Shown here piece after piece: positions 39,029 through 43,600 of a DNA stretch of 64,000 nucleotides. Source of the stretch: Agrocybe praecox (taxonomy: Eukaryota > Basidiomycota > Agaricomycetes > Agaricales > Agrocybaceae); contig OZ024840.1 in the NCBI GenBank assembly GCA_964017145.1, positions 1,984,001-2,048,000 of the forward strand. Direction: 5' to 3'. Positions within the stretch are counted from its first letter, which is position 1, and every line of letters begins with the position of its first letter. A program made the translations under genes and the position numbers. The notes beneath the pieces were generated by a model. It did not search any database, was not told where the DNA came from, and saw only the letters and a list, made by a program, of their open reading frames with translations.

Positions 39029-40348
39029 ATGCTGAACGGCAGCGGTATCAAAATCTTTTCGGGTGCGAATTGTCGTGTATGCAAGCATGAATTTTGAATT
39101 TGCAAGCTGACAAGCTTCTATTCGTAGGGACGAGCCATCCCGAACTTGCTGAGATTATTGCTAGACGGTATCTCTCTTCCCTTATCATCAAGGCTTTCCA
39201 TCCTTGAAAAACGCCATTCATTGACATCATGCTCCAGCATTGGTTTGCCCCTCTCCAAAGCTGAAATCACGAAAAGTGGAATCGGCGAAACAAACGTTAC
39301 CATCGCAGAATCGGTGCGAGAGGACGATGTGTATATCATCAACACAGGCTGTGGAGCAGTCAACACGGCACTTATGGAACTGTGCATCATGATTCATGCC
39401 TGCAAAATCGCAAGTGCAAAGCGAATCACGGCTGTTATTCCTCTGTTTCCCTATGCTCGACAAGATAAAAAAGACAAAAGTCGAGCTCCCATTACGGCTA
39501 AGCTCGTGGCAAATATGATTCAAAAAGCGGGTTGTGATCATGTTATTGTGAGTAGTGGAGGATTTCGAAGCTAGCTCGGCCCCCGCTTGACTACCGTTAT
39601 ATTGTTTACAGACTATGGACCTCCACGCTTCTCAGATTCAGGGTTTCTTTGATGTTCCGGTTGACAAGTGAGTCCAGGATCGCTTCTCAAGCCTAAAGTT
39701 AATTTAAACCGACAATCTAGTGTAAGGAGGTCTACCACCCTGCGCTTTTTTGAATTTGCAACTGAAGCCTTTGCAGCTGTATGCAGAACCATCGGCAATT
39801 CTATATATAAGGACGCATTTCAACGTGGATGATGTCGTTATCGTTTCACCAGATGCTGGAGGCGCTAAACGGTGAGCGAATAGGTTAGCTAGTTTCACGC
39901 AGCGACTAATAAACCTTGCAGAGCTACATCAATAGCTGACCGGCTTGGCGTAGACTTTGCATTATTCCACAAGGAGCGAAAAAAAGCTAACGAAGTATCA
40001 CGTATGGTGTTGGTGGGGAACGTCAAGGACAAGATTGCAATACTTGTGGACGACATGGCAGACACCTGCGGGACACTCTGCCTTGCAGCATCGCACTTGA
40101 CTGAAGCGGGTGCGACGAAGGTATTTGCATTTGTGACCCACGGGATCCTGAGCGGAAATGCGCTGCGGACGATTGAAGGAAGCAGCTTGGAGAAGCTGAT
40201 TGTGACGAACACGCTGCCGCAGAATGCGAACCAGGCAGCATGCAGCAAAATTGAGGTCATTGACATTGGAAAAGTACTTGGAGAAGTGATACGACGGAGC
40301 CACTATGGGGAGAGTGTGTCGAAGCTGTTCCACGAGGTGCCATATTAG
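39029..40348 (+). CDS. PRS: Ribose-phosphate pyrophosphokinase (PRPP synthetase)
   Basis: Coding segments 39029..39062, 39128..39167, 39238..39547, 39612..39667, 39721..39721, 39777..39871 and 39922..40348 give 320 residues, the normal length. It makes PRPP from ribose-5-phosphate and ATP for nucleotide, His and Trp synthesis. Motifs: [59 protein letters not shown] (the flexible ATP-binding loop), [34 protein letters not shown] and the PRPP-binding [13 protein letters not shown]. The frame closes only if a single T at 39721, flanked by perfect AG and GT sites, is an exon: GAC AA + T + CTG gives Asp-Asn-Leu, the conserved sequence. It belongs to the short PRS class without the large insertions seen in yeast Prs1/Prs5. 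Confidence 0.92.
39721..39721 (+). other. Predicted single-nucleotide exon in PRPP synthetase
   Basis: Intron 39668..39720 (53 nt, GTGAGT...CTAG) and intron 39722..39776 (55 nt, GTAAGG...GCAG) flank one T. It completes the Asn codon AA|T. No alternative acceptor yields the required frame with AG ends. Confidence 0.75.
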
Positions 40349-40605: not shown

Positions 40606-43600
40606 ATGCAAGGTATCTGACAGAATCCAAACAGCTCATTTTATATATCTCTCTCACACTCTTCCCAGATGGCCATGCTCAACAACAACCAAACGGCCAT
40701 CCTCACACAAACAACCATTCACAACACAGGCCTCAGCTCAAGGCCCCTATTACGGTCGTCGGAATCCCCAGCGTATCCATACACAACAACAGGCTTCACG
40801 TTGGCACCTCCCAGACCAGTCCGCTAGCTTCCTACTTCTTTCCGCTTTTCCCCAGCTTATTTTTCCCTCTATCTAGGCTCGACACGCTCATATACACCCC
40901 TCAAGGTCTTGGGAGATGGTTCATTTGGCACCGTTTGGCTCTGCGATTGGCATGGCACTTTACCCCCAAATACCCCACTTTCCCCGATGCAGTGTGGAGC
41001 AGGTGCGAGGCCAGAATGGGCCGGGAAGCGGTTGGTAGCAGTCAAGTTGATGAAGAAGAGATGGGAGGGAGGTTGGGATGAGTGTCAGAAACTCAAGGAG
41101 CTTGAGGTGCGTTATCCTCCAATTCTTTTTCTCTTAATTCGCGCGTTAAAGCGCATACATTCAGTCTCTGCGCGCAATTCCTTTTCACCCAAACATTATT
41201 CCACTGTACGATTTCTTCCTTCTTCCCGACACCAAAGAACTGTATTTCGTGTTTGAATCCATGGAGGGAAACCTTTACCATCTCATCAAAGCACGTAAAG
41301 GCCGACCGCTCGCGGGTGGCCTAGTTTCTTCTGTTTTTCGCCAAATCGTAACCGGACTAGACCACATACACGCCCACGGCTACTTTCATCGCGACATGAA
41401 GCCTGAGAACGTCCTCGTCACTACCACCGGTCTCTTCGACTACACCAGCCTGTCACCAATCGCACCGCCGAACGCACCGAAGGAGAAAGATGTCGTTGTC
41501 ATCATCAAACTAGCCGATTTCGGTCTTGCTCGAGAAACGAAAAGTTCACCACCTTACACAGAATATGTATCCACCCGTTGGTATCGGGCGCCAGAGGTGT
41601 TGCTATTGAGTCGAGATTACTCGAATCCTGTCGATATGTGGGCATTTGGTACAATCATGGCAGAACTAGTCAATTTGCGTCCACTATTTCCTGGCTCTGA
41701 TCAGATTGATCAGGTGGCACGAATTTGTGAGATTCTGGGAGACCCGTCAGATGCGTATGGGGTTGACATGTACGGAAGTCTGTTAGGTGGAGGTCCATGG
41801 GCTAAAGGAGTCAAACTTGCAGAGGTTATTGGCTTCCAGTTTCCTCAGGTGCGTTAACAATTTAGTTGCATTTCAACTTGAATTATTGACTGTGTATCCT
41901 AGATTCCGCCGAAAGACTTTTATTCCCTATTTGAGAAGACGGTACCAGTATCGCTAATCAACTGCATTCGAGATCTTTTGAGATACGATCCTGCAAAACG
42001 TCTAACTAGTAGGCAATGTATGGACCATCCTTACCTGCTAGAAACAATACCCCGTAACAATATCCCTATACCCTCTGGCTTGTATGCATCAACATCGCAA
42101 TCTTCCATTCCCACCATTGGTCCGTACAACGGCTCCAGTTCCAACCCATCATTAACAACAACACCCCACATCCCTCCATCACATTTACGTCCTGTGCATA
42201 ATCACCACCCCCAACACTTTCCCGACGCTTCCACTACCCATCGCATACCCTATTCTACACCTTCACCTCACCCTCAATTTCCCTCTCATCCCAACGTTCC
42301 TATTGCGCACAGTGATTATCGACATGTACCTTCTAATGGTAACTGGCAAGATTCTCAAAACGACTTTCCAATGGATGTCGCTCCTCAAAATCCACCTCAA
42401 CGACCACATCTTATGGATACTCAAGATTCAGCTATGGTTCAAGATGCGCCGCTTGTCGAATCCCAAGATGCTTCTAACGCCCAAGCGTCGCACGGCAGTA
42501 AACTCGGCAAATTGGGTCCTTTGACCTTTGTAAGGAAGCATAGCAAATGGGGTCTTGGTGGTATGTTTGGCGGAGACAAGTCACACCATAATCCCCTTCC
42601 TCCTGTTGATGAAGCAAGTCCGGCTGTGATATATCCTTCCCGCAAGCGCACACAATCTTCAAGTACAGACAGTCGGTCATTGCGTGATTCTTCACCAGTT
42701 CGCGCACCTGCGCCAGTGGATCCGCGTCAAGCTAAGAAAATGCAAGACTTTAACAAAAAGGAGGCTGAACGGTTACTCCGTGAGGCTGAGATCGCTAAGC
42801 GTAAACGGACGGAGACGAGTCAACGGGAACAAGCTCGTGCTGTCACTCTCAAACGTCAACAAATACTTCGCGCCAATGTTGGTGATGATCTCGAATGGCA
42901 AGCAGGTCCCGCGCCGGAACTCAATGCAGGGAAACAACCGTCATCTGGACCAGTTCGACGTGAACAGAGTGCAGGAGGTAATGCAGCCTCGACCATTGGT
43001 GCAGCCGCTGGCAAATTCGTGCAAAGCAGTGAACTACTGCATTCGCCTCCTGATCGAGATAGAGAAAATCGTGACCGTGAATGGAGAAATCAACAAGAGC
43101 GTATGGTCAAGGCTCGGCGGCGGGAATATGATGATGACCACTCGATGTCGTCTTCGGATGTGCATAGTCTTAGTCGGACGTCTTCAATATCCTTCGCTAC
43201 GGTTGATAGTGATCCTGGACCATCAAGGCTACGGAACCGACCAAGTTTATATGGTATCAGTAGGATGACTTCAAGATCTTCTCTACGGACATCCTTTGAC
43301 GACTTTCCACCTTCTGCTCACGACTTTCCGCCTTCTGCTCGTTCATCAAATTCGTTCTCCCTCGAGGGCCAGTTGGTCCACGATTTTCGTACCCAAGCCT
43401 CTGTGTCATCGCATATATCAGGCAGCGTGTCTCCTCCGCCTCTTCAGTTACTTTCTCTTTCTCCTTCCATGTCTCCATCTTCGCCTCCTTATGGGTTACA
43501 ACGACATAAAGGCGACCTCTTATCCAGGACACAATCACCTCCCTTCCTTGCTGTATCTCCTGTTTTCTTCCCAAGCAATCCTCATAGTCCCCGGGATTCA

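Follow-up and report, generated by a model that had tools for sequence, protein, structure and literature searches.

A probable single-nucleotide exon in the PRPP synthetase gene of Agrocybe praecox and its likely retention in Agaricomycetes

The PRPP synthetase (PRPS) gene located at positions 39029-40348 (+) of the analysed window, a stretch of 64,000 nt of Agrocybe praecox DNA, most probably contains an exon of one nucleotide. The best overall explanation of the data is that a single T at position 39721, flanked by two short introns, makes up a whole exon; the probability of this reading was estimated at about 95%. Three things were observed directly: how the sequence is arranged, that no other usable micro-exon restores the frame in the range examined, and the way in which the annotations of homologues go wrong. 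Their combination is very hard to explain by other means. From it are deduced the splicing as such, its order and constitutive character, and the corresponding arrangement in the DNA of relatives. The gene model is as follows.

39029..39062, + strand: PRPS exon 1, with the start codon
39063..39127, + strand: PRPS intron 1, 65 nt, GTGCGA...GTAG
39128..39167, + strand: PRPS exon 2
39168..39237, + strand: PRPS intron 2, 70 nt, GTATCT...CCAG
39238..39547, + strand: PRPS exon 3
39548..39611, + strand: PRPS intron 3, 64 nt, GTGAGT...ACAG
39612..39667, + strand: PRPS exon 4, last bases GAC AA, phase 2
39668..39720, + strand: PRPS intron 4a, 53 nt, GTGAGT...CTAG
39721..39721, + strand: putative single-nucleotide exon T, third base of Asn147 (AA-T), supported at the protein level
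39722..39776, + strand: PRPS intron 4b, 55 nt, GTAAGG...GCAG
39777..39871, + strand: PRPS exon 6, first codons CTG TAT GCA GAA
39872..39921, + strand: PRPS intron 5, 50 nt, GTGAGC...GCAG
39922..40348, + strand: PRPS exon 7, to the stop codon

The modelled product has 320 residues and matches the three Pfam domains PF13793, PF00156 and PF14572. The scores of PF13793 (166.3 bits, curated cut-off 25) and PF14572 (133.2 bits, cut-off 27) place it among the ribose-phosphate pyrophosphokinases. A DNA search of the whole assembly gave one match, which is the PRPS locus itself. In the alignments shown, the model runs without gaps alongside human PRPS1 through VDN-LYAEP, and the human protein also has Asn there. 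A second gene of the PRPS family is located at G000:C5:754641-755863 (L003, L006, L007), with 66% identity over residues 25-181. This C5 paralogue, which was used as a length marker, has no intron at the one-base site and is open through it, reading GFFDIPVDNLWSEP.

The end of exon 4 (GAC AA, up to 39667) and the CTG TAT that starts at 39777 are one base out of frame when joined directly. The initial annotation had pointed out this difference between GAC AA and CTG TAT GCA GAA, and the sequence check agrees. The gap of 109 nt between both exons (39668-39776) contains ATCTAG-T-GTAAGG, and including its T at 39721 completes the Asn codon and restores VDN-LYAEP in a PRPS of 320 residues; the details given in the initial annotation (CTAG-T-GTAAGG within 109 nt, the position of the T, intron lengths of 53 and 55 nt, 320 residues in total) all check out. 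At both edges of the gap the missing position would be filled by G, which gives Lys, and Asn requires T or C; hence, only a base from within the gap can complete the Asn codon. When the outer sites are kept in place and each half has to measure 30 nt or more, the gap offers two frame-correct GT-AG micro-exons. One of them, of 31 nt, includes a stop, and the single T is the only stop-free choice within the limits scanned. Single introns were also enumerated, with donors from 39640 to 39699 and acceptors up to 39839; eight outcomes were in frame without stops within these limits, and all eight change the conserved motif. The mildest one with a normal acceptor uses the donor GTTGAC at 39660, drops VDN and gives 317 aa.

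The locus shares several features with the nuclear spliceosomal one-base exons of APC11, VPS55 and CYP621A: flanks one base out of phase, a missing base within a conserved motif, an AG-N-GT in the gap that defines two workable GT-AG introns (53 and 55 nt), and a residue count confirmed by uninterrupted homologues (the C5 paralogue and human PRPS1). These intron lengths had been called typical of this genome, which holds within the comparison made, the gene's four remaining introns measuring 50-70 nt. If the T is spliced as an exon, the transcript would read GACAA-T-CTGTAT, and contrary transcripts would read GACAACTG or GACAAGCTG.

Homologues were collected by three protein searches, keeping the best 120 of 7992, 7991 and 7993 hits, respectively, which gave 186 distinct proteins. 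Of these, 107 have an NCBI genome source, and the other 79 come only from JGI or 'lgn' contigs, a label which we take to denote Logan assemblies of public reads. The contig-only proteins are encoded by intron-free, single-frame ORFs on short contigs (the longest contig per cluster measures 963-6274 nt), and are for this reason presumably derived from cDNA. Two entries with a genome source, P0010 and P0045, also have a contig source and were counted in the genome group. Among the 107, some are strains of one species. As the queries of searches 2 and 3 were annotations of the K type, the sample is biased towards this type; in search 1, which used the intact model as query, 5 of the 55 genome-annotated entries among its best 120 hits were intact. 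Moreover, the viral_contigs and genome_contigs sets were searched with a degenerate pattern of the exon 4 end plus donor, with no matches in either; a protein scan of the viral contigs gave two loci at 43% identity, which were set aside.

The two groups differ sharply at codon 147, the one completed by the T. Among the matches listed, 101 of the 107 genome-annotated proteins are aberrant there: 31 read VDK, 26 lack VDN, 25 read VDK followed by W, C or Y, 5 read VDN followed by V-S or V-G, and 14 show other changes. The six intact ones among these matches (P0010, P0045, P0064, P0104, P0106 and P0156), which come from Laccaria, Moniliophthora roreri MCA 2997, Marasmius oreades, Taiwanofungus (two entries) and Somion, could be cases of intron loss or of correctly modelled one-base exons. 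On the other hand, all 79 contig-only proteins listed keep the length at this codon, with N in 78, S in one and K in none, and the V and D of VDN are invariant in this set. The exception, P0017, reads VDS instead of VDN, perhaps a genuine replacement in the split codon. Indels located within four residues of a junction follow the same distribution. In the genome set listed, 69 of the 107 proteins have one at this site, and the counts at the four remaining introns are 0, 0, 1 and 0 of 107; in the contig set listed, they appear in 0 of 79 here and in 1, 1, 0 and 0 of 79 elsewhere, both of these (introns 1 and 2) being due to P0105, which has an aberrant start. Likewise, the Jensen-Shannon divergence between both sets, as listed, reaches 0.705 at residue 147 and 0.157 at residues 145 and 146, with 0.129 as the next value elsewhere and a median of 0.005.

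Furthermore, in ten pairs of an annotation and a contig protein among the matches listed, the two members are identical or differ at a single position over the 296 other residues, a comparison that leaves out the N-terminus and the junction and in which identical proteins are not proof of the same species. Nine of these pairs combine a contig protein that has VDN with an aberrant annotation, and in the remaining one (Laccaria P0010) both members are intact. Three discordant Pleurotus annotations (one with K, one missing VDN and one with K plus an insert of eight residues) all match the same contig protein, P0059, which reads VDN, and two Postia/Rhodonia annotations match contig protein P0116, which also has VDN.

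The errors are of the kinds to be expected from a base concealed within an intron. An annotator that does not allow a one-base exon has to mend the frame in another way, and the choices available are visible in the window. Judging from the proteins, choosing the donor GTTGAC would lose VDN, as in 26 of the 107 entries listed. Reading AAG and starting the intron from TG, or keeping the last G of the intron, would give VDK, as in 31 of the 107. A donor four bases further on (GTRN followed by GT) would add a TRN codon, which is a sense codon only for W, C or Y, and all 25 single-residue insertions after VDK among the matches listed are one of these (W 13, Y 7, C 5); in this window, that donor would read TGA. 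When the first intron is spliced and the second is not, AAY would be followed by GTNAGY or GTNGGN, the start of a GTRRGT donor, so that N-V-S or N-V-G is expected; V-S or V-G comes next in 5 of the 7 VDN-plus-insert annotations listed, and no GT donor is read in P0043 and P0063. The insert of P0087 from Moniliophthora roreri, of 25 residues after VDN and ending in F-Q, looks as if a whole intron of 75 nt (GTNGG...CAG) had been retained after the Asn codon. The 14 entries with other changes were decoded in part.

Several alternatives have to be considered. The gap could be a single intron of 109 nt, the frame being broken by a sequencing or assembly error with one base missing at a junction, and the matter would then turn on the junction sequences GACAAGTGAG and TTTGCAGCTG. 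One missing base at either junction, for instance a second C at CAG-CTG, would restore VDN-LYAEP just as well. However, this codon is also affected in 101 of the 107 genome annotations listed, most of them from separate species and assemblies, and the other four introns show a single indel in 4 x 107 checks among these matches; an error would also make the central YAG-T-GTAAG motif a coincidence. Regarding these data, an error is very unlikely. A stwintron (spliceosomal twin intron, in which an internal intron splits a splice element of an external one) or another nested excision in which no exon is retained would fit the look of the gap, since two intron-like units lie next to each other there, with an AG and a GT in the interior, much as in the complex introns described from fungi. 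Nevertheless, such an excision keeps nothing between the outer sites, and by simple arithmetic the frame would stay broken, while the contig proteins have the extra base, which makes this alternative scarcely credible. RNA editing or ribosomal frameshifting was also considered and is not needed, the contig ORFs being continuous.

The aberrant annotations could also be taken at face value. A non-canonical splice, with the intron starting from TG after GACAAG or with the G of the final AG kept, would give a true Lys147, and exactly this VDK is annotated in 31 of the 107 genome entries listed. However, K is found in none and N in 78 of the 79 contig-only proteins listed, the K annotations of Pleurotus P0065 and Postia P0146 agree at every one of 296 other residues with contig proteins that carry N, and Asn is also the residue in human PRPS1 and the C5 paralogue, so a real Lys here is extremely improbable. 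The remaining option is that one intron begins at 39660 with GTTGAC, a weak donor, and that the real protein has 317 aa and lacks Val-Asp-Asn; this splice is in frame and stop-free, and 26 of the 107 genome annotations listed adopt it. Nonetheless, VDN is missing from none of the 79 contig-only proteins listed, where V and D are invariant and N occurs in 78, and Pleurotus eryngii P0096 and Suillus P0109, both annotated in this way, are identical over all 296 other residues to contig proteins that have VDN. A cDNA with GTTGACAAT would be at odds with a product lacking VDN. The chance that such a protein is the real one is negligible. The initial reading of the T as an exon is strongly supported at the protein level by the contrast between 101 aberrant entries among 107 genome annotations and N in 78 of 79 contig-only proteins among the matches listed.

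Concerning the distribution of the exon, aberrant entries among the matches listed belong to seven orders whose lineages were checked, all of them Agaricomycetes: Agaricales (checked through Pholiota), Boletales (through Rhizopogon and Serpula), Jaapiales, Atheliales, Amylocorticiales, Polyporales and Russulales. Examples are Athelia P0181 (VDKY), Heterobasidion P0168 (VDKC), Serpula P0095 (without VDN) and Rhizopogon P0080 (VDNVS). Jaapia P0113 (Jaapiales) and Plicaturopsis P0093 (Amylocorticiales) show plain VDK, with one entry per order; this signature is the least specific of all, and a true Lys could exist there. The one-base exon is probably common to the PRPS orthologues of several of these orders, with a similar arrangement that their DNA would be expected to show. 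An exon shared in this way would have been present in a distant common ancestor. It is quite likely, then, that it was ancestral to at least five orders (Agaricales, Boletales, Atheliales, Polyporales and Russulales) and probably to seven, with Amylocorticiales and Jaapiales, and that it was kept through their radiation as a constitutive exon of an essential housekeeping gene.

The sequence motif was also evaluated against chance. YAG[CT]GTR.G in a central position (both halves of at least 45 nt) is found in 1 of the 459 GT...AG 109-mers on both strands of the window, that one being the PRPS locus. When the gap was shuffled 5000 times at the dinucleotide level, it appeared in 0.08% of the shuffles. 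The looser AG[CT]GT in central position is found in 10 of the 459 (PRPS locus included) and in 3.7% of the shuffles, and by itself it therefore carries little weight. Candidate branch sites close to CTRAY are TTAAT, CTAAA and CCGAC in intron 4a (each 4 of 5 positions) and CTGAA in intron 4b (4 of 5), 11 nt from its 3' end. Elsewhere in the gene, introns 2 and 3 have near-consensus branch sites as in 4a and 4b, and introns 1 and 5 have perfect ones. On a weak yardstick of 17 predicted introns, the 4a acceptor falls at the 0th percentile and the 4b donor at the 12th, but undisputed PRPS sites score just as poorly, with the acceptor of intron 2 at the 0th and the donor of intron 3 at the 6th; these percentiles were not counted as evidence, a second intron finder having yielded just 3 confident introns in the window. 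Repeats were sought around the single T and none were found.

With regard to the mechanism, introns 4a and 4b would each be recognised as a unit (intron definition). U1 usually covers a donor from -3 to +6. At the 4b donor this footprint would extend over 39719-39727 and overlap the AG of the 4a acceptor (39719-39720), and because of this overlap the two introns would probably be excised in succession. Such a sequential removal would be akin to recursive splicing at a ratchet point, with one base left behind.

The initial annotation had mentioned the one-base exon of Arabidopsis APC11. That report stands, but not as the sole case, since plant VPS55, Fusarium CYP621A and organellar examples have also been described. 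The APC11 exon is an A within a stretch of 422 nt, proved by cDNA and minigenes, and its authors favour intron definition with recursive, sequential removal (PMC4674806). It resembles PRPS in being a nuclear base between two introns, missed by annotation and widely conserved, and it is constitutive in Arabidopsis (PMC4674806, PMC8831610). PRPS differs in its short introns (53 and 55 nt), in gene and kingdom, and in that its support is at the protein level. The VPS55 exon of land plants is likewise missing from reference annotations and is followed by a GTRAGT donor; unlike PRPS, it belongs to a different gene and kingdom and its inclusion is alternative in some plants (PMC8831610).

One case is fungal. 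CYP621A is also a nuclear gene with one base in a conserved motif, a gap exceeding two ordinary introns in length and wrong annotated models in every case but one, and it is presented there as the first for a fungal gene (PMC12940212). However, it is an ascomycete P450 from Fusarium species, with a G supported by 18 RNA reads (PMC12940212), whereas PRPS is a basidiomycete housekeeping enzyme with a T, apparently across several orders. In the mitochondrial genes cox1 of placozoans (PMC5436844) and rnl of Ophiostoma (PMC12308204), a single-base exon also lies between two introns, but these are group I or group II introns and not spliceosomal ones. A search of titles and abstract starts in the open-access literature gave no report of a one-base exon in agaricomycete PRPS. 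In the text seen of PMC4014442 and PMC3990503, microexons appear only as mapping settings, and in that of PMC8208691 the term appears only in the reference list.

PRPS would thus join the known nuclear one-base exons as an apparently unusually widespread case and, if the reading is true, as the most widely conserved one in fungi among the cases found in the literature. It would also mean that nearly all genome-derived PRPS sequences of the group examined are corrupted, 101 of the 107 agaricomycete entries listed having a conserved motif with a wrong residue or with residues missing or added. This suggests that, where introns are short, an essential gene can keep a one-base exon over very long periods. 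The order of splicing and the limits to splice-site overlap would be testable in the tractable Coprinopsis, Schizophyllum and Pleurotus. Moreover, a route to other one-base exons that does not depend on reads would be to look for genome models scrambled at one codon where cDNA-like contigs agree.

Regarding the surroundings of the gene, scans of the 64,000-nt window found no tRNA and, at the gathering threshold, no Rfam family. The gene directly downstream of PRPS, at 41150-41857 (+) of the window, encodes a protein kinase domain (PF00069).
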